This document shows, piece after piece, positions 5,441 to 14,373 of a DNA stretch of 18,418 nucleotides. How positions within the stretch are numbered: the stretch's first letter is position 1; the number at the start of each line of letters is the position of its first letter. This DNA comes from Candidatus Altarchaeales archaeon (lineage in GTDB: Archaea; Altiarchaeota; Altiarchaeia; IMC4; SCGC-AAA252-I15): the NCBI GenBank assembly GCA_016867655.1, contig VGJA01000003.1, positions 1 to 18,418 of the forward strand. The letters run 5' to 3'. A program made the translations under genes and the position numbers. The notes below the pieces were generated by a model that made no database searches, was not told the origin of the DNA, and saw only the letters and a program-made list of their open reading frames with translations.

Positions 5441-6178
5441 ATGACTTTAGACAACTTCAGCGTTGTTTTGGTTGAGCCGAAGTATGACGGCAACATAGGC
5501 TCTGTAGCCAGGATTATGAAGAACTTCGGCTTCAGCAGGCTGGTTTTGGTCAACCCTCCTAAGCTGGGCAAAGAAGCTAGGGCGATGGCAATGCACGGCC
5601 GGGACATAATGGAAAACGCTGTGAAACTGAAGTCCTTCAAACAGCTGGAAGGCCGGTTTGACTTCCTGGTTGCGACTTCTTCTGTGACCGCCACGGACAA
5701 AAACTATTTGAGGACGCCAATTCTTCCAGAACACTTGTCTAGGACTCTTGAAGTCAAAGGCAACATTGCCTTGATTTTCGGCAGGGAGGACATTGGTTTG
5801 AGCAACGAAGAGATTGAATCATGCGATTTGCTTTTGAACATTCCCTCTAACCCAGAATACCCTACATTGAACCTGTCGCACAGCGTCGGCATTCTGCTCT
5901 ACGAATTGAGCAAAGGCATATGGACCGGCAGGCTGAAGAAGAAAAAGAAATTCCAGGAACTCAGCGGTGTTGAGAAAAAAGTCTTGCTGGAAAAATTCAA
6001 TGCACTGGTTGATTTGGCGCAGAAAAAGGATTTTGACAGAAGGCTTGCAAAAAAAACCTTCAGGCAAATAATATCAAGAGCTTTCATCTCCAGCGGCGAA
6101 GCCTCCACAATGATTGGAATCATGAGAAAGGCCGGAGATGCAATACGCAGGAACAAAGATAAAGCCAGCAAACAATAA
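5441..6178 (+). CDS. trmJ: TrmJ-type SPOUT RNA 2'-O-methyltransferase
   Basis: A 245-residue SpoU/TrmJ-family methylase; archaeal and bacterial TrmJ 2'-O-methylates position 32 of tRNAs. The SPOUT trefoil-knot motifs are clear: motif 1 VEPKYDGNIGSVARIMKNFG (residues 10-29), ALIFGREDIGLSNEEIESCD (motif 2) and LNIPSNPEYPTLNLSHSVGI (motif 3), followed by the C-terminal helical extension (about 160-245) seen in TrmJ. It starts at the ATG after a 38-bp divergent promoter and is probably leaderless. Exact tRNA substrate is inferred from the family. It adds to several RNA-methylation genes in this window. Confidence 0.92.
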   Translation: MTLDNFSVVLVEPKYDGNIGSVARIMKNFGFSRLVLVNPPKLGKEARAMAMHGRDIMENAVKLKSFKQLEGRFDFLVATSSVTATDKNYLRTPILPEHLSRTLEVKGNIALIFGREDIGLSNEEIESCDLLLNIPSNPEYPTLNLSHSVGILLYELSKGIWTGRLKKKKKFQELSGVEKKVLLEKFNALVDLAQKKDFDRRLAKKTFRQIISRAFISSGEASTMIGIMRKAGDAIRRNKDKASKQ

Positions 6179-8194: not shown

Positions 8195-8449
8195 TCAGTA
8201 TGCTTTATCGTGGTGTTTCACATAGTGGACTGTCAACACATCCCCCTCTACTTCAAATATTACGACAAATGGGTCAAGGTGCGCTCTTCTACACCCCCTT
8301 AGAACATTCCCAAGCGGCTTGTAGTGCTCTGGATTCTGCCTGATTTCCTTCAGCTTCCTGGCAAGCCTCTCAAAAAGCACCTTGTCTTTTTTCTTCAGCT
8401 TAGAAAGCTGCTTTTCGAAGAATGGCGTGAACCTGAGCTTGTAGTCCAT
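8195..8449 (-). CDS. relE: RelE/ParE-superfamily toxin
   Basis: An 84-residue protein of the RelE/ParE toxin fold, whose members usually cut mRNA on the ribosome or poison gyrase. It has the RelE pattern: MDYKLRFTPFFEKQLSKLKK (strand plus helical hairpin), FERLARKLKEIRQNPEHYKPL, GCRRAHLDPFVVIFEV (strands with basic residues) and the C-terminal VHYVKHHDKAY, where family members carry H..Y active-site residues. I start at ATG 8449, one nucleotide after the antitoxin stop; a frame extension to 8473 overlapping the antitoxin is less likely. Order antitoxin then toxin is the normal arrangement, giving tight coupling. Substrate not predictable. Confidence 0.88.
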   Translation of the reverse strand: MDYKLRFTPFFEKQLSKLKKKDKVLFERLARKLKEIRQNPEHYKPLGNVLRGCRRAHLDPFVVIFEVEGDVLTVHYVKHHDKAY

Positions 8450-8450
8450 C

Positions 8451-8738
8451 TCACAGCTTCCGGAAGTATTCATCCAATTCCTTGTCGGACTTGAATATTC
8501 GGCCCCTGCCGGCCTTAGCCTCTTTCATGCTCTGTTTGACTCCGGCAACCAAATTTATGTCGCCGTAAATCATCTTTTCGTCTAAGTCAGCAACCACAGG
8601 CCGCAGCCCCTTGAACTCCTCCCTGATGCCGCTTCTCACCAAATCGCTGAAGTTCGAAAACAAGCCTCTCCTAACCAAACCCATTGCCTCATCATACAAA
8701 CTTTCCGGCAGGGAAATTGTAACCTTCCTAAAGTCCAT
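8451..8738 (-). CDS. Ribbon-helix-helix antitoxin
   Basis: A 95-residue CopG/ParD-like antitoxin. The N-terminal ribbon-helix-helix is MDFRKVTISLPESLYDEAMG then LVRRGLFSNFSDLVRSGIRE (about residues 1-42), a DNA-binding dimer. The acidic/basic C-terminal tail (about 55-95) should wrap and neutralise the RelE toxin. Start choice: ATG 8738 has a clear Shine-Dalgarno GAGGTGG (8750-8744) six nucleotides away; the GTG three codons upstream lies inside that SD. A TATA box (8774-8783) sits upstream. RHH antitoxins commonly repress their own promoter. Confidence 0.9.
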   Translation of the reverse strand: MDFRKVTISLPESLYDEAMGLVRRGLFSNFSDLVRSGIREEFKGLRPVVADLDEKMIYGDINLVAGVKQSMKEAKAGRGRIFKSDKELDEYFRKL

Positions 8739-8743
8739 AAATA

Positions 8744-8783
8744 CCACCTCAATACTACTTAAGGGAGTACCAGAATATAAATA
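8744..8783 (-). promoter_or_regulatory. Toxin-antitoxin promoter and ribosome-binding site
   Basis: On the minus strand TATTTATATT (8783-8774) is a strong TATA box predicting a start near 8752. The short leader then contains GAGGTGG (8750-8744) before ATG 8738. This is one of the few genes here with a clear SD leader; others appear leaderless. Confidence 0.6.
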
Positions 8784-10189: not shown

Positions 10190-11098
10190 CTACTTATTCT
10201 TGAAGGGTGCGCATTTTCTAATCTTCGCTATGAAATAACCTCCTGTGTTGTTGTAGTGTGGTAAAATCCTCAGGCAGTCAAAAGTCTTGTCTGTCAAACC
10301 TTTCTTGGACTGCAAGCCAGACAATTTTATTCTTTCAAGCCTGGCATTCTTGCATGAATCCAAAATGTGTTCAACCACTTGTTCATTCTCCTCAATTGAC
10401 GTGGTGCAGGTGGAATAAACCAAGACTCCCTCCTCCTTCAGGCAGTTGTATGCCGCAACAGCAAGCCTCTTCTGCAAGGCGCTCAGCCTGATGACCTTGC
10501 CCTTACTCCAGTCTCTAATCACATCTCTGCTAGACATCGCCCTCCCGACGTCGCTGCACGGAACGTCCAACAAAATTTTGTCAAACTTCACTCCAAACTG
10601 GTCAAACTTCACGCCATCCTGCCTTGTGATTACAGCATTGGAAACCCCACACCTCTGTATGTTGTAAACCAGCGCCCTAATCCTCCTATAGTCCTGCTCG
10701 TTTGCAAGCAAACAGCCTTCATTCTGCATCAAAGCAGCCAAGTGGGTTGTCTTGCTTCCTGGCGCGGCGCACAAGTCCAACACCTCTTCCCCTGGCTTAG
10801 GGTCTAGTGCAAGCGAGACTGCCATTGAGACGGCATCCTGAATATAGTAAAAACCAAGCTGGTGTTCCACCAAACTTGAGGGCTCCAAGTCAACCCAAAG
10901 TCCCTCCGGACACCACGGAATTCTAGCATACTCAATCCTGTTTTCATACAAAACCTTCTCAACCCTCTCCACACCGGCCTTAAGGGTGTTCACCCGAATT
11001 GCAGATTTAGGCTTAAACCTCAAGCTGTCGACAAACTCCTCAAACTCCCTACCCAAAAGCTTTTGATGGTAAAACTCGAATTCTCTGTTGTAAATCAT
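10190..11098 (-). CDS. NOL1/NOP2/Sun-family RNA m5C methyltransferase
   Basis: A 302-residue SAM-dependent RNA cytosine-C5 methyltransferase. Motifs: SAIRVNTLK (32-40, N1/RRM-like region), QDAVSMAVSLALDPKPGEEV, motif I LDLCAAPGSKTTHLAALM (107-124), NEQDYRRIRALVYNIQRCG (SAM ribose acid), motif IV LLDVPCSDVG with C181, and motif VI VYSTCTTSIEENE with catalytic C231. It ends soon after the catalytic core and has no PUA domain; that function is likely supplied by the next gene. ATG 11098 has GAGGT just upstream. A complex hairpin lies in the 5' region (11129-11212) and a candidate C/D guide RNA beyond it. Target, rRNA or tRNA, cannot be decided here. A 12-nt microduplication (10580-10591, 10601-10612) gives the local repeat GVKFDQFGVKFD. 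Confidence 0.93.
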   Translation of the reverse strand: MIYNREFEFYHQKLLGREFEEFVDSLRFKPKSAIRVNTLKAGVERVEKVLYENRIEYARIPWCPEGLWVDLEPSSLVEHQLGFYYIQDAVSMAVSLALDPKPGEEVLDLCAAPGSKTTHLAALMQNEGCLLANEQDYRRIRALVYNIQRCGVSNAVITRQDGVKFDQFGVKFDKILLDVPCSDVGRAMSSRDVIRDWSKGKVIRLSALQKRLAVAAYNCLKEEGVLVYSTCTTSIEENEQVVEHILDSCKNARLERIKLSGLQSKKGLTDKTFDCLRILPHYNNTGGYFIAKIRKCAPFKNK

Positions 11099-11128: not shown

Positions 11129-11212
11129 TTTTCTTTCTTTTTCGCAGGCGTTTTTCTTTCTTTTCTGCCCAGCTTTGCTGGCATCCCCGAAGGGGGAAAA
11201 AAGAAAGAAAAA
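11129..11212 (-). other. Structured leader of the NSUN gene (three-way junction)
   Basis: TTTTTCTTTCTTTT (plus 11151-11164) pairs perfectly over 14 bp with 11199-11212 and encloses two hairpins: GCC(C)AGC/GCTGGC and CCCC/GGGG. Read on the minus strand the latter is capped by a C(UUCG)G tetraloop, a mark of RNA on that strand. A second T-rich stretch (11129-11142) can pair equally well with the same A-rich arm, so two exclusive folds exist. On the minus strand the T-rich arm follows the sRNA's D box and could also be its terminator. Confidence 0.55.
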
Positions 11213-11311
11213 GGCCTCAGGACTCATAAGTCTCGTCATCTACCGCCCTTGCGGGTATGTCCTTTTCAGGACACTTTGCAGGTATCAGCGGTTGTTCGCG
11301 TCATCACTTGG
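11213..11311 (-). ncRNA. Box C/D guide sRNA with two guides (predicted targets 23S U2552 and tRNA-Met C34)
   Basis: Minus strand, in order: C box GUGAUGA (11307-11301), 12-nt guide (11300-11289), D' box CUGA (11288-11285), 45-nt spacer, C' box AUGACGA (11239-11233, one off RUGAUGA), 12-nt guide GACUUAUGAGUC (11232-11221), D box CUGA (11220-11217), then GGCC and a T-run. Guide 1 is complementary to CGGUUGUUCGC, nearly the universal 23S A-loop GGYUGUUCGCC, and its N+5 position falls on U2552. Guide 2 pairs nine bases with GACUCAUAA, the anticodon loop of archaeal elongator tRNA-Met, with N+5 on wobble C34. Both are known 2'-O-methyl sites. The spacer holds a 6-bp hairpin capped by a GAAA tetraloop (11258-11273) and a second hairpin (11242-11256). 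A TATA box (11333-11340) is 26-29 bp upstream of the C box. Only a short CC/GG terminal stem can be drawn. Confidence 0.8.
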
Positions 11312-11314
11312 TTA
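11285..11314 (-). repeat. 30-bp direct repeat, copy 1 (C box, guide, D' box)
   Basis: Identical to 11440-11469 except at 11300/11455, offset 155 bp. The conserved stretch covers exactly the promoter-proximal AACCAA, C box, U2552 guide and CUGA, which suggests that the repeat is kept for RNA function. Confidence 0.9.
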
Positions 11315-11332
11315 ATTCTAGAATTAGTAAAG

Positions 11333-11340
11333 TAAATATG
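11333..11340 (-). promoter_or_regulatory. TATA-like box for the C/D sRNA
   Basis: Minus-strand CATATTTA centred about 29 bp before the C box, predicting a transcript start 3-4 nt upstream of GUGAUGA, as expected for a C/D sRNA gene. The second copy has a TATA at the same distance. Confidence 0.55.
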
Positions 11341-11346
11341 TTCTCC

Positions 11347-11401
11347 CCCTGGTTTTTTCCTTGAAGCAGGAAAAGACTGATTGTTTTCGTTTTCCCCAGG
11401 G
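11347..11401. other. Hairpin pair between the two sRNA copies
   Basis: CCCTGG (11347-11352) pairs with CCAGGG (11396-11401). Inside it TTTTCCT (11355-11361) pairs with AGGAAAA (11368-11374). I see no C/D boxes or coding frame here; it separates the second copy's terminator from the first copy's promoter. Confidence 0.45.
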
Positions 11402-11434
11402 TTTTTTATTGACCTCCGTTAGGTCAATAAAAAA
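11402..11434 (-). terminator. Perfect 14-bp hairpin with T6 after the second sRNA copy
   Basis: TTTTTTATTGACCT, a 5-nt loop and AGGTCAATAAAAAA form a perfect 14-bp stem. On the minus strand a T6 run (11434-11429) begins 5 nt after the copy-2 D box, a plausible archaeal oligo-T terminator for the short RNA. Confidence 0.55.
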
Positions 11435-11466
11435 GGCTGTCAGCGGTTGTTCGCATCATCACTTGG
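11435..11466 (-). ncRNA. Second, half-length C/D guide RNA copy (same U2552 guide)
   Basis: Minus strand: ACCAA, C box GUGAUGA (11462-11456), 12-nt guide (11455-11444) identical to guide 1 except the base next to the C box, D-type box CUGA (11443-11440), CAGCC and T6. Its own TATA (11488-11496) lies about 30 bp upstream of the C box. No C' box, second guide or terminal D box is found, so it is either a decayed copy or a one-guide RNA. It appears to equal the longer copy with everything between D' and the post-D 'CC-T-run' removed. Confidence 0.6.
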
Positions 11467-11487
11467 TTAGTGGATTAGGTTTGCAGG

Positions 11488-11496
11488 GTTTTTAAG
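11488..11496. promoter_or_regulatory. TATA-like box shared by sRNA copy 2 and the zincin-like gene
   Basis: GTTTTTAAG reads as a TATA-like box in both directions. On the minus strand it predicts a start about 4 nt before the copy-2 C box. On the plus strand it predicts a start near 11518, giving a short leader with the SD at 11519-11526 before ATG 11537. Confidence 0.5.
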
Positions 11497-11536
11497 CATG
11501 GTTTGCTCATTGTATTGTAGGAGGTGTGTTTTTTTT

Positions 11537-13051
11537 ATGCCTGTTGTTACGGAAAAATCTAGGGTTGTTGGTTCTGGCGGGCGTGAGGGAAGTGTTGAGT
11601 TTTCTCTTCAGAAGCAGGTGTTGGATTCCATTGGAGTTTATGCAGCGGTTGAGGCTGGAAGGCACGTGACCCATGGTATGAAGCTTGGGAATCCGTTTAT
11701 GGTTGCTGGGAACTGGAGTGATGTTGAGACAACTCTTGGGGGGATGAGCCCTTCGGCTGTTAACATCATTCGGGGTGCTGCTGCAGCTTTTGATGTTTTG
11801 AAGAGAGATAGGGGGGATGCAGCTACAACTCTGACCGGGAAATGCAGGAAAGCGCTTGCGTTGAAGCCCACTCCAGGTGAAGCAGTTGAGGTTGATGTGA
11901 CACATGAGTCCAATAGCCTAATGGGTTTAGATGAAGTCGCCAACTTGAAGTATCTTGGGCAGATGGTGACCCTTGAAGCATCAAGAAGTGGGAGGGCGGT
12001 AACGCCCCTCTTCCAGTCTGCTCAAACTTGGAGGCAGGTGCAGGATGAGTTGATGGCGATTCCGACAAACGGGCCTGCAGGAGGGCTGGCTTTGATTGAA
12101 GGGTTTTCAGCCACCATGGGCGAGTTAAATCCGGGCTACAAGCCGGTTGGAAGCCGCATAGCGTCCATAGCTGGAGGCATAATGAAGGCAAGAAAAGAAG
12201 CTGAGTTGGGGCAGCAGGGAGAAAAAACTGGCATGCAGGTTGCTTTACCGCCTGCTCGTACATTTGTCGACGAGAGGACTGTGCCCGATAGGATTGCTGT
12301 AGACGGGAGGGGCGCTGTATACGATAGATTCAATCAAGAATACGTCCAAGCTCCAAGGCTTTTGCAGTTTAACCGCGAGTGCGAGAGCAGGGGCATAGCT
12401 TTGGGCGTGAGCATAGAAATCGGACAGGCTGAAAAGTTTGCACCGGTTTTGTCTTCGGTTTTGGACATCTTTCCTCCAAAGCTGGCGGGAGCTTCTGTTG
12501 AACAGCTGTCTCTTGGTGGTCGTCCGCCTGTTGGCTTTGACAGAGTTGGCGGGTTTGACGGTGAAACAAAGCTTTCTGTCGTATCAGACTACAATTTTCA
12601 AACAGGGGGTAATCCAATAGACTCCAGAAAGAAAATGGAAGTTGCTTTTGCTTTCTTGCACGAGTTTGGGGAGGGCGTGTGGCACCATCTGTCTCAAAGT
12701 ACCAACCCTGCAATCCAGAAGTCTGTCAGAGCTCTTGAAGCGGGAGAGAGTGTGTTAGGCGCGAACACAGGCGCAATGTGCCGCCGTCCTGAAGAGGAGG
12801 GGATGTTTAGCGGCGCAGGTCCTATTAGCATGGGCGGTGCCTGCCATTTTTTCATTGAAAACATGAAATACTACCTCTTTTACCCCCAAGAACTTGCAGC
12901 GCATGTTGAAAAACTAAGGCGCCAGGGTTCGCCGCTCGCCCCGCTATATGATGAGACAATCGGTCTGTTTCAGAAGGCCATAGGAAGCAATCAGGATCCG
13001 GCGTTCCGCAAGAAAGTTGAGAGAGCTCAGCAGGAGATACAAATAGTCTAA
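11537..13051 (+). CDS. Unrecognised 504-residue protein with a zincin-like C-terminal domain
   Basis: I know no family for the whole protein. The C-terminal half resembles a zinc metallopeptidase of the lethal-factor kind: a strand VGGFDGETKLSVVSDY, then helix AFAFLHEFGEGVWHHL (H375, E376, E379, H383, H384) and later HFFIENMKYYLFYPQELAAH (H437, E441), where zincins carry a third ligand in 'E(F/Y)FAE.F..YL..P..L'. The usual HExxH reads HEFGE, so the second zinc histidine is a glutamate; H383/H384 might substitute. The N-terminal 230 residues are helical and alanine/glycine-rich without known motifs. No signal peptide or membrane helix is visible, so it is probably cytoplasmic. I start at ATG 11537 because SD AGGAGGTG (11519-11526) precedes it; an in-frame ATG at 11498 abuts the TATA-like box. 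It converges on the phosphomutase gene, their stops overlapping. Confidence 0.8.
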   Translation: MPVVTEKSRVVGSGGREGSVEFSLQKQVLDSIGVYAAVEAGRHVTHGMKLGNPFMVAGNWSDVETTLGGMSPSAVNIIRGAAAAFDVLKRDRGDAATTLTGKCRKALALKPTPGEAVEVDVTHESNSLMGLDEVANLKYLGQMVTLEASRSGRAVTPLFQSAQTWRQVQDELMAIPTNGPAGGLALIEGFSATMGELNPGYKPVGSRIASIAGGIMKARKEAELGQQGEKTGMQVALPPARTFVDERTVPDRIAVDGRGAVYDRFNQEYVQAPRLLQFNRECESRGIALGVSIEIGQAEKFAPVLSSVLDIFPPKLAGASVEQLSLGGRPPVGFDRVGGFDGETKLSVVSDYNFQTGGNPIDSRKKMEVAFAFLHEFGEGVWHHLSQSTNPAIQKSVRALEAGESVLGANTGAMCRRPEEEGMFSGAGPISMGGACHFFIENMKYYLFYPQELAAHVEKLRRQGSPLAPLYDETIGLFQKAIGSNQDPAFRKKVERAQQEIQIV

Positions 13052-14373
13052 AGGTGTTTTTTCAGTTCTGTTTCTATTGTTTTCCTTATTTTGTCCAGCC
13101 CTTTTTTTGTTTTGCTTTCCATCCTTAGGATTAATGCCGGCTGGGTGTTGCTTGCTCTGATTAGGCCCCATCCGTCTTTGAATTGTATTCTTGCGCCGTC
13201 TATGGTTATTACTTTAAGTTTTTTTTGCTGTAGTTGTTTTGTGACTTTTTCCACCACTTGGAATTTTTTTTCGTCTGGGCATTCTACTCTTATTTCGGGT
13301 GTTGAGTGGTATTTGGGCATGTTGTCCATCAGGTCTGACATTTTTCTGCTGTTTTTTGAAAGCAATTCAGCCATCCGCGCTGTGGCGTATATTGCGTCGT
13401 CGTAGCCGTAGTTGTCTGCGAAGTAGAAGTGTCCTGACATTTCGCCTGCAAGCACTGCATTTTCCTCCTTGATTTTCTGCTTTATATAGCTGTGGCCGGT
13501 GCGATACATGATGGGAACGCCTCCGTTCTTTTTTATTTCCTCTTCCAATGCGCGGCTGCATTTGACCTCATAGATGACTTTGGCCTTTTTTTCTTTTTTC
13601 AGTATTTCTCTGGCAAACAGTATCAAAGCCTGGTCTCCCCTGACAATCCTGCCTTGGTTGTCTATGAAGCCTGCTCGGTCTGCATCTCCGTCAAAGCCCA
13701 CTCCAAAGTCTGCTTTCCATTTTTTGACTTCCTTAATCAAGTCTGCAAGATTTTTGTCTACTGTCGGGTCGGGGTGGTGGTTGGGGAAGTTTCCATCCAG
13801 CCTGCTGTATAGTTCTATAACTTCACAGCCCAATTCTCTCAACAGTTTTGGGGCAAGCATGCCTCCCATGCCGTTGCCCGAGTCCAAGACAACCTTCAGT
13901 TTTCTCCCGAGGCTGACATGCTTTAAAACAAAATTTATGTAATCCTGGCTTACATCCTTTTTTCCAAGCCTGCCCGAGCCCTTCCTGAATTTTTTATTGT
14001 CAATGATGTTTTTCAGCTCCAGGATTTCTTCCCCGTGCAATGTCATGTAATCTCTGATGAATTTGAATCCGTTGTATTCAGGCGGATTGTGGGATGCAGT
14101 CACCATTATCCCGTTTCCGTATCTGAAGAAATTGGCTGCAAAGTAGACTAACGGAGTTGGGACAACGCCGATGTCAACCACGTCTACGCCTGTGGAAAGC
14201 AGGCCTGCAATAAGTTTGCATGCAAGCTTTTCGCCGCTCAAGCGCATGTCCCTACCAACTACTACCGTCCCGCTGGCAGTAGAGCCGAAAGCACGGCCAA
14301 TGTCATAAGCAAGCTGGTCTGTAAAATCCTTGCCGTAGACTCCCCTAATGTCATAAGCCCGGAATATTGTCAT
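13048..14373 (-). CDS. manB: Phosphomannomutase/phosphoglucomutase
   Basis: A 441-residue alpha-D-phosphohexomutase interconverting hexose-6- and hexose-1-phosphate (mannose or glucose; the sugar cannot be fixed from sequence). All four active-site parts are intact: FRAYDIRGVYG at the N-terminus, phosphoserine loop VTASHNPPEYNG (S94), metal loop FDGDADR (227-233), sugar-binding GEMSGHFYF (310-318) and phosphate-binding RASNTQPALILR near the C-terminus. It lies downstream of the nucleotidyltransferase on the same strand (144-nt gap containing a tandem repeat), so the mutase product probably feeds that enzyme. Its stop codon shares bases with the stop of the convergent gene. Confidence 0.94.
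   Translation of the reverse strand: MTIFRAYDIRGVYGKDFTDQLAYDIGRAFGSTASGTVVVGRDMRLSGEKLACKLIAGLLSTGVDVVDIGVVPTPLVYFAANFFRYGNGIMVTASHNPPEYNGFKFIRDYMTLHGEEILELKNIIDNKKFRKGSGRLGKKDVSQDYINFVLKHVSLGRKLKVVLDSGNGMGGMLAPKLLRELGCEVIELYSRLDGNFPNHHPDPTVDKNLADLIKEVKKWKADFGVGFDGDADRAGFIDNQGRIVRGDQALILFAREILKKEKKAKVIYEVKCSRALEEEIKKNGGVPIMYRTGHSYIKQKIKEENAVLAGEMSGHFYFADNYGYDDAIYATARMAELLSKNSRKMSDLMDNMPKYHSTPEIRVECPDEKKFQVVEKVTKQLQQKKLKVITIDGARIQFKDGWGLIRASNTQPALILRMESKTKKGLDKIRKTIETELKKHL

Follow-up and report, generated by a model that had tools for sequence, protein, structure and literature searches.

A hairpin-expanded box C/D sRNA with probable guides for 23S U2552 and pre-tRNA-Met C34 in an uncultured archaeon

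The locus and the layout of the RNA

The window, meaning the whole 18,418-nt stretch that was analysed (contig VGJA01000003.1 of assembly GCA_016867655.1, from a Candidatus Altarchaeales archaeon), contains a box C/D sRNA between a gene for an RsmB/F-type RNA methyltransferase (10190-11098, minus strand) and a 517-aa ORF (11498-13051, plus strand). The ORF has no Pfam match, includes a HEFGE...HH-like stretch and has no relative in loci L029-L073 besides the window's own. It separates the sRNA from a PGM/PMM-type gene (13048-14373). When flanks of about 1.5 kb are compared, a relative of the PGM/PMM gene adjoins the corresponding Met guide RNA, described below, in 9 of the other 21 loci. Seven of these nine genes share the strand of the RNA and immediately precede it, at 36-477 nt as counted from the end of the match; the other two follow it on the opposite strand. 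Between the PGM/PMM gene and the sRNA of the window lie the 517-aa ORF and a half copy of the sRNA.

Fibrillarin, the methyltransferase of C/D RNPs, is encoded about 9.7 kb away on the same contig (914-1561, minus strand; PF01269, 269.7 bits against a cut-off of 27), and this is the only fibrillarin match found in the assembly. The window also includes a SpoU-family methyltransferase gene (5441-6178) and, on the minus strand at 8195-8747, two small ORFs of 92 and 98 aa that overlap and by eye resemble a RelE-type/ribbon-helix-helix pair. ARAGORN detects no tRNA gene in the window, where all Rfam matches also stay below their cut-offs. The best Rfam match over the sRNA is sR41, on the half from box C' to box D (19.8 bits, E 0.74, cut-off 54). 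A match to MIR6426 was rejected because it is sub-threshold and corresponds to the palindromic 3' hairpin.

The sRNA occupies 91 nt of the minus strand, from 11307 to 11217. Box C, GUGAUGA (11301-11307), matches RUGAUGA and is followed by the 12-nt D' guide CGCGAACAACCG (11289-11300) and box D', CUGA (11285-11288). After a 45-nt spacer (11240-11284), box C' (11233-11239) reads AUGACGA, one step from RUGAUGA; RTGACGA variants of this box are also present in G002, G003, G005, G006, G007 and G027. The 12-nt D guide GACUUAUGAGUC (11221-11232), with its conserved core CUUAUGAG, precedes box D, CUGA (11217-11220), and a U-rich stretch. Boxes C, D', C' and D are therefore in the right order for an archaeal box C/D guide sRNA. 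The boxes, guides and trailing T-run that the first-pass annotation had read are all in place on the minus strand; it mentioned neither the spacer hairpin nor the half copy, nor a separate canonical U2552 sRNA elsewhere in the genome.

The external terminal stem that would join the C and D boxes is weak in this RNA, where by eye only CC/GG pairing is possible. Among relatives, such stems (also judged by eye) are clear in family f7 and weak or absent in family f1. Immediately 3' of box D is a U-rich/A-rich, terminator-like hairpin (11146-11216, minus strand), an inverted repeat with 25-nt arms that are 88% complementary. Folding of the region beats that of shuffled sequences (z -3.6), a result that, to judge by the drawn structure, comes in large part from the long 3' hairpin.

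The half copy (11440-11469, minus strand) consists of TAACCAA, box C, the U2552 guide and CUGA, is identical to 11285-11314 at 29 of 30 positions, and lacks both box C' and the second guide. Its flanks are unrelated to those of the full copy, and no terminal stem is seen by eye; it may be functional or a relic. It is likewise followed immediately by a terminator-like U-rich/A-rich hairpin (11397-11439, minus strand; 19-nt arms, 89% complementary). Each copy is preceded by a TATA-like word within an A+T-rich stretch of the minus strand: CATATTTAC (11332-11340), 24 nt from box C of the full copy, and CTTAAAAAC (11488-11496), 25 nt from that of the half copy. A 32-row A+T profile, in which the full copy is entered twice and only 8 of the U2552 loci are represented, has one A+T-rich stretch about 34-27 nt ahead of box C and another about 16-6 nt ahead. 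The position of the former fits that of a putative TATA box. Degenerate second tandem copies of the tRNA-Met guide occur in two other genomes, G018 (L059/L073) and G021 (L057/L072), 108 and 157 nt from the first, so the Met guide RNA has undergone partial tandem duplication more than once.

Hairpins of a similar kind are scattered through the tRNA genes of the same genome (L008-L010, L075-L083). Thirteen of the 16 tRNA genes read by ARAGORN have introns, of 27-146 nt, and 10 of these 13 introns contain U-rich/A-rich palindromes like those 3' of the sRNA. Similar palindromes also lie 3' of two tRNA genes. They might be terminators, processing signals or mobile hairpins.

The D'-C' spacer

The spacer contains internal hairpins, and its ends pair as a UACC/GGUA stem that leaves one unpaired nucleotide (G) before box C', which is the geometry of a kink-turn. 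The position of this stem is kept, with several types of base pair, in most relatives compared. Over 22 loci, the kink-turn offset of one nucleotide yields 65 pairs; 2000 shuffles average 14.6 and never exceed 31, and offsets of 0, 2 and 3 yield 8, 5 and 21 pairs. The 22-locus comparison leaves aside the G008 locus (L070), which by eye is a coding repeat, and the extra copies L072, L073 and L074. G010 and G020 were added by hand to the pair count only, and are not part of the tests on 23S rRNA or of the flank comparison; G025, with its 4-nt spacer, was left out of that 23-locus count. The first pair of the stem is standard in 20 of the 23 loci (10 GC, 4 AT, 3 TA, 2 CG and 1 GT), and the second in 19. 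Covariation supports a closed kink-turn stem at C'/D'.

Seven of the 24 loci depart from this, with a stem that is weak, absent or impossible at that offset. It is weak or missing in G026-G028, is reduced to one pair in G009 and to one pair followed by a mismatch in G024, starts with a mismatch in G001, and is impossible in G025, which has an ordinary 4-nt spacer. At 45 nt, the spacer in the window is the longest of the 22 loci; the other 21 range from 4 to 37 nt. For the C34 guides covered in an earlier survey, the D'-C' spacer is 4-10 nt, or 19-21 nt in Halobacteria (PMC2584109). A short spacer describes most archaeal box C/D sRNAs and does not define the class, and the long spacer is the main departure of the window RNA from the features by which such RNAs are recognised.

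Targets of the two guides

The 23S rRNA of the same genome was located with the archaeal LSU model, and its A-loop reads GGUUGUUCGCCC (in a longer reading, GGGGUUGUUCGCCC). The D' guide forms 10 contiguous Watson-Crick pairs, 10 of 10, over GGUUGUUCGC, which places U2552 opposite the fifth nucleotide before box D'. The numbering is that of E. coli, which we assign from the A-loop context. This alignment upholds the register on U2552 that had been proposed from the window alone. The attached caveat, that position 2551 might be C, falls away, since this 23S rRNA has U at 2551, as the guide expects. Among 100 shuffled versions of the guide, two attain a 10-nt run at some point of the 6.2-kb 23S locus; by itself the run is thus only a moderate surprise, and the weight lies on conservation and register.

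The D' guide module (at most one mismatch) is present in 18 of 81 genomes, comprising 15 of the 29 in the phylum and 3 of the 52 outside it; the reversed pattern has no match. Of its 17 places inside the phylum, 14 adjoin a C2558-type guide; the exceptions are the window RNA and its half copy, together with a locus in G024, a genome of another family. With up to three mismatches, the genome of the window has three places: the window RNA, the half copy 155 nt upstream, and positions 2024-2046 of contig C124. The last (L003) belongs to a canonical dual-guide sRNA with a short spacer, whose second guide is in register on C2558 with a run of 8 nt. Five further members of the family (G001, G003, G004, G006 and G007; L035-L039) have the U2552 and C2558 guides in swapped order. 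Because the C124 sRNA already covers U2552, the D' guide of the window RNA may be redundant. No FtsJ/RlmE-type protein scores above the cut-off in the assembly (sole match 19.7 bits, cut-off 24.1), an absence that counts in favour of the guide reading, but weakly, because the assembly is only 79% complete.

The first guide slot differs widely among relatives. The 22 first guides were compared with the 23S locus of the window genome alone, so the orphan status of those that lack a match is provisional. Runs of at least 9 nt are found for four of them. The guides of the window genome (G000) and G024 both fall on U2552 with runs of 10, lengths reached by 2 and 1 of 100 shuffles, respectively. Those of G012 (run of 11; 0 of 100 shuffles) and G016 (run of 9; 7 of 100) share a single site in helix 69, presumably near C1920. 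The remaining 18 guides have runs of 8 nt or less, a length reached by at least 10 of 100 shuffles in each case. In G001, of the same genus as the window genome, the Met guide RNA has a different first guide and no U2552 guide. The combination of U2552 and Met C34 guides recurs only in G024. A scan of GTDB 220 (one genome per species, which may leave out records of the window's own genome) for the combined layout with a spacer of about 22-52 nt returned one place, L046, which matches the G024 locus at every position of a 2000-nt comparison. These patterns are most simply read as an old Met guide RNA with a first slot free for new guides. A U2552 guide would then have come to occupy that slot in the window lineage and also, whether independently or from an ancient state, in G024. 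To judge by the relatives, which mostly lack a 23S target in this slot, the U2552 guide was probably placed into an existing Met guide.

The D guide is more widely kept. Its module, TGANGANNCTTATGAGNNCTGA (at most one mismatch), matches in 25 of the 29 genomes of the phylum, and the reversed control has one match in all. The match in G008 (L070) was set aside as a probable false one because it looks like a coding repeat, which leaves 24 of 29. The two modules' conservation and their reversed controls (0 and 1) bear out the earlier judgement that chance is an unlikely source of both guides; the 10-nt run on 23S rRNA carries less of that argument. The boxes, whose conservation in close relatives had been set as a test, are conserved there, and so is the D guide. 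The D' guide is not, and differs in G001.

Genes for tRNAs with a CAU anticodon were sought by a D-arm pattern, which has matches in 19 of the 29 genomes, and they form two classes. The first, with a GGGCCCG-type acceptor, includes genes with introns and genes without, and we take it to be tRNA-Ile2-like. In the second, the acceptor is of the GCCG type and an intron follows position 37; we take this class to be elongator tRNA-Met. ARAGORN names nearly all members of both classes Met from the CAU anticodon. The fit of the guide to the GCCG-acceptor class supports its naming as elongator Met.

In all nine genomes in which both the guide and this gene are known, the guide forms 10-11 contiguous Watson-Crick pairs with the intron-containing precursor and 8 with the spliced tRNA (splice point placed by ARAGORN). 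The shorter run ends there because in 9 of 9 the guide has a mismatch to position 39 of the spliced tRNA; the same guide base pairs with the second base of the intron in every precursor. The guides of these relatives pair with the unspliced junction CUCAUA/AG and then track the next base of the intron, which is U in four genomes, C in four and G in one. Guide and target thus change together between families while the register on C34 is kept. The nine genomes represent three families, so this covariation amounts to few independent events. Pairing over 10-12-nt guides with the target base opposite the fifth nucleotide is accordingly found at U2552 of the genome's own 23S rRNA and at C34 of pre-tRNA-Met in nine relatives.

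Because the precursor pairs better than the spliced tRNA, methylation should precede splicing, as in reports for other archaea. Joardar et al. (2011) reportedly described C34 methylation of the sR-tMet type ahead of splicing. According to PMC2584109, part of the intron of pre-tRNA-Met in other archaea pairs with the sRNA, so that Cm34 must form before splicing. The first-pass annotation had assigned the D guide to C34 of elongator tRNA-Met from nine pairs with GACUCAUAA. The register survives comparison with relatives, but the precursor is the better partner, and GACUCAUAA also occurs in the tRNA-Ile2-like CAU tRNAs.

The tRNA-Met gene of the window genome was not found in the 79%-complete assembly by four routes. 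The pattern ACTCATAA has 19 places, of which one is the window's own guide and the other 18 are not in tRNAs as judged by eye and by ARAGORN with introns allowed. The tRNA family model has 15 matches in this genome, none read as Met. A pattern running from the D-arm to the anticodon has no place in it, and a looser version has two, neither a tRNA. The contiguous CTCATAAG of a mature tRNA-Met has one match in the 29 genomes, within a stretch that is not tRNA-like, and this near-absence pointed to an intron. Nor did the assembly yield a tRNA-Ile2-like CAU gene, which makes an assembly gap the likely cause of the missing tRNA-Met. The window guide predicts that this tRNA-Met has an intron starting AGUC after CUCAUA.

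Interpretation and relation to known systems

That this uncultured archaeon encodes a genuine small guide RNA here is very probable; the RNA is of a known kind but with an unusual, hairpin-expanded joining of two jobs. The explanation that we regard as likely is a box C/D sRNA of the sR-tMet/sR49 type whose D guide acts on C34 of pre-tRNA-Met before splicing and whose D' guide acts on U2552 of 23S rRNA, with a closed kink-turn at C'/D'. The sRNA would assemble with L7Ae, Nop5 and fibrillarin into a predicted RNP. Its D guide would pair across the exon-intron junction of elongator pre-tRNA-Met, the intron of this genome's own tRNA-Met being a presumed one, and direct 2'-O-methylation of C34; its D' guide would direct 2'-O-methylation of U2552 in the A-loop. 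Boxes C' and D' would fold as a closed kink-turn in which a long structured stem replaces the usual short k-loop.

Perhaps only the tRNA-Met half works, the D' stretch being a U2552 guide copy that is redundant or in decay, with U2552 itself served by the canonical C124 sRNA, which has the same U2552 guide next to a C2558 guide and a normal short spacer. This would agree with the lack of a 23S run above 8 nt for 18 of the other 21 first guides and with the Met RNA of G001, which is without a U2552 guide. Yet in the full copy all 10 pairing bases, box D' and the register are intact, and the half copy retains the same guide. Moreover, G024, of another family, has the same pairing of U2552 and Met C34 guides, and the module pattern finds no other U2552 guide there. 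We hold it unlikely that only the tRNA-Met half works. A more speculative proposal, which also seems to us unlikely, is that the joining of the two guides is no accident but selected, having arisen twice or being ancient and kept in two families, and that the half copy is a stand-alone mini guide gene. Maturation of the A-site loop of the ribosome and that of the methionine decoder would then be coupled through one RNP, and 11440-11469 would be a mini C/D RNA with one kink-turn, served by a TATA-like box and a terminator of its own.

It is very improbable that the D guide serves tRNA-Ile2(CAU) or spliced tRNA-Met in place of the intron-containing precursor. Intronless CAU tRNAs with the GGGCCCG acceptor (L090, L091, L093, L094 and L096) do carry GACUCAUAA, and hence nine pairs with the window guide. 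However, the guide base that pairs with the second intron base and mismatches spliced position 39 in 9 of 9, together with a next base that follows the intron through U, C and G, argues for the precursor, and C34 of tRNA-Ile(CAU) is agmatidine in archaea according to PMC7668247. We give almost no credence to the idea that the locus is a palindromic repeat or mobile hairpin element with box-like words arisen by chance. The D guide is near-palindromic, U/A-rich inverted repeats crowd the region and similar palindromes recur in tRNA introns, and the fold score owes much to the long 3' hairpin. Against this, each guide module is conserved across genomes while its reversed pattern is hit once or not at all, the guide core is constant whereas spacer and flanks vary, and the stem is favoured at the offset specific to kink-turns.

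The likely reading, a working dual guide, would extend pre-splicing, RNA-guided methylation of the Met wobble base to an uncultured archaeal phylum (24 of 29 genomes). The pairing of guide with intron offers a testable reason for retention of the tRNA-Met intron in these archaea. The relatives also provide a natural set of C'/D' kink-turns, whose closing stems range from about 2 to 7 pairs, on which the effect of spacer architecture on the two methylation sites could be tested.

The window RNA resembles sR-tMet of haloarchaea and sR49 of Pyrococcus in being a box C/D sRNA whose gene lies apart from that of the tRNA and whose guide is in register on C34. Pairing of those RNAs includes intron bases of pre-tRNA-Met (PMC2584109), and the same holds for 9 of 9 relatives of the window RNA. 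In contrast, the window RNA has a 45-nt spacer closed by a kink-turn where PMC2584109 gives 4-10 nt (19-21 nt in Halobacteria), its partner guide has an rRNA target, and a tandem half copy is present. Searches of an open-access library did not turn up these combinations (a long closed kink-turn spacer, an rRNA partner guide and a half copy). Assignment to sR-tMet/sR49 denotes a functional type, and the likeness in target may be convergence.

The U2552 guide has its own parallels. The sR25 RNA of Pyrococcus abyssi is predicted in PMC2584109 to guide the U2552 equivalent, and it is likened to the window RNA by target only; unlike in sR25, the U2552 guide of the window shares its RNA with a tRNA guide. 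The canonical U2552/C2558 sRNA of the same genome (C124:2024) shares the core guide GCGAACAACC and the U2552 register, but combines a short spacer and a terminal stem with a second guide, for an rRNA site six bases away, and lacks a tRNA guide.

The C/D sRNA of the tRNA-Trp intron (sR50 type) also guides a wobble base of a pre-tRNA, but lies within the intron of its target, whereas the window RNA is a separate gene. The tRNA-Trp intron of this genome (L082, minus strand, about 1493-1711) contains a C/D-like stretch with CCGA, a hairpin UACUC-GCAA-GAGUA, a single G and AUGACGA, by eye a layout of D', closed hairpin and C' like that of the window RNA. Also by eye, its D' guide has the C34 register on tRNA-Trp with a short run of pairs. 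In Pyrobaculum, the second guide of tRNA-guiding sRNAs is without a target, according to a survey as summarised in PMC7994747. Compared with those untargeted second guides, the window RNA would be a Met guide whose second guide has a target in rRNA.
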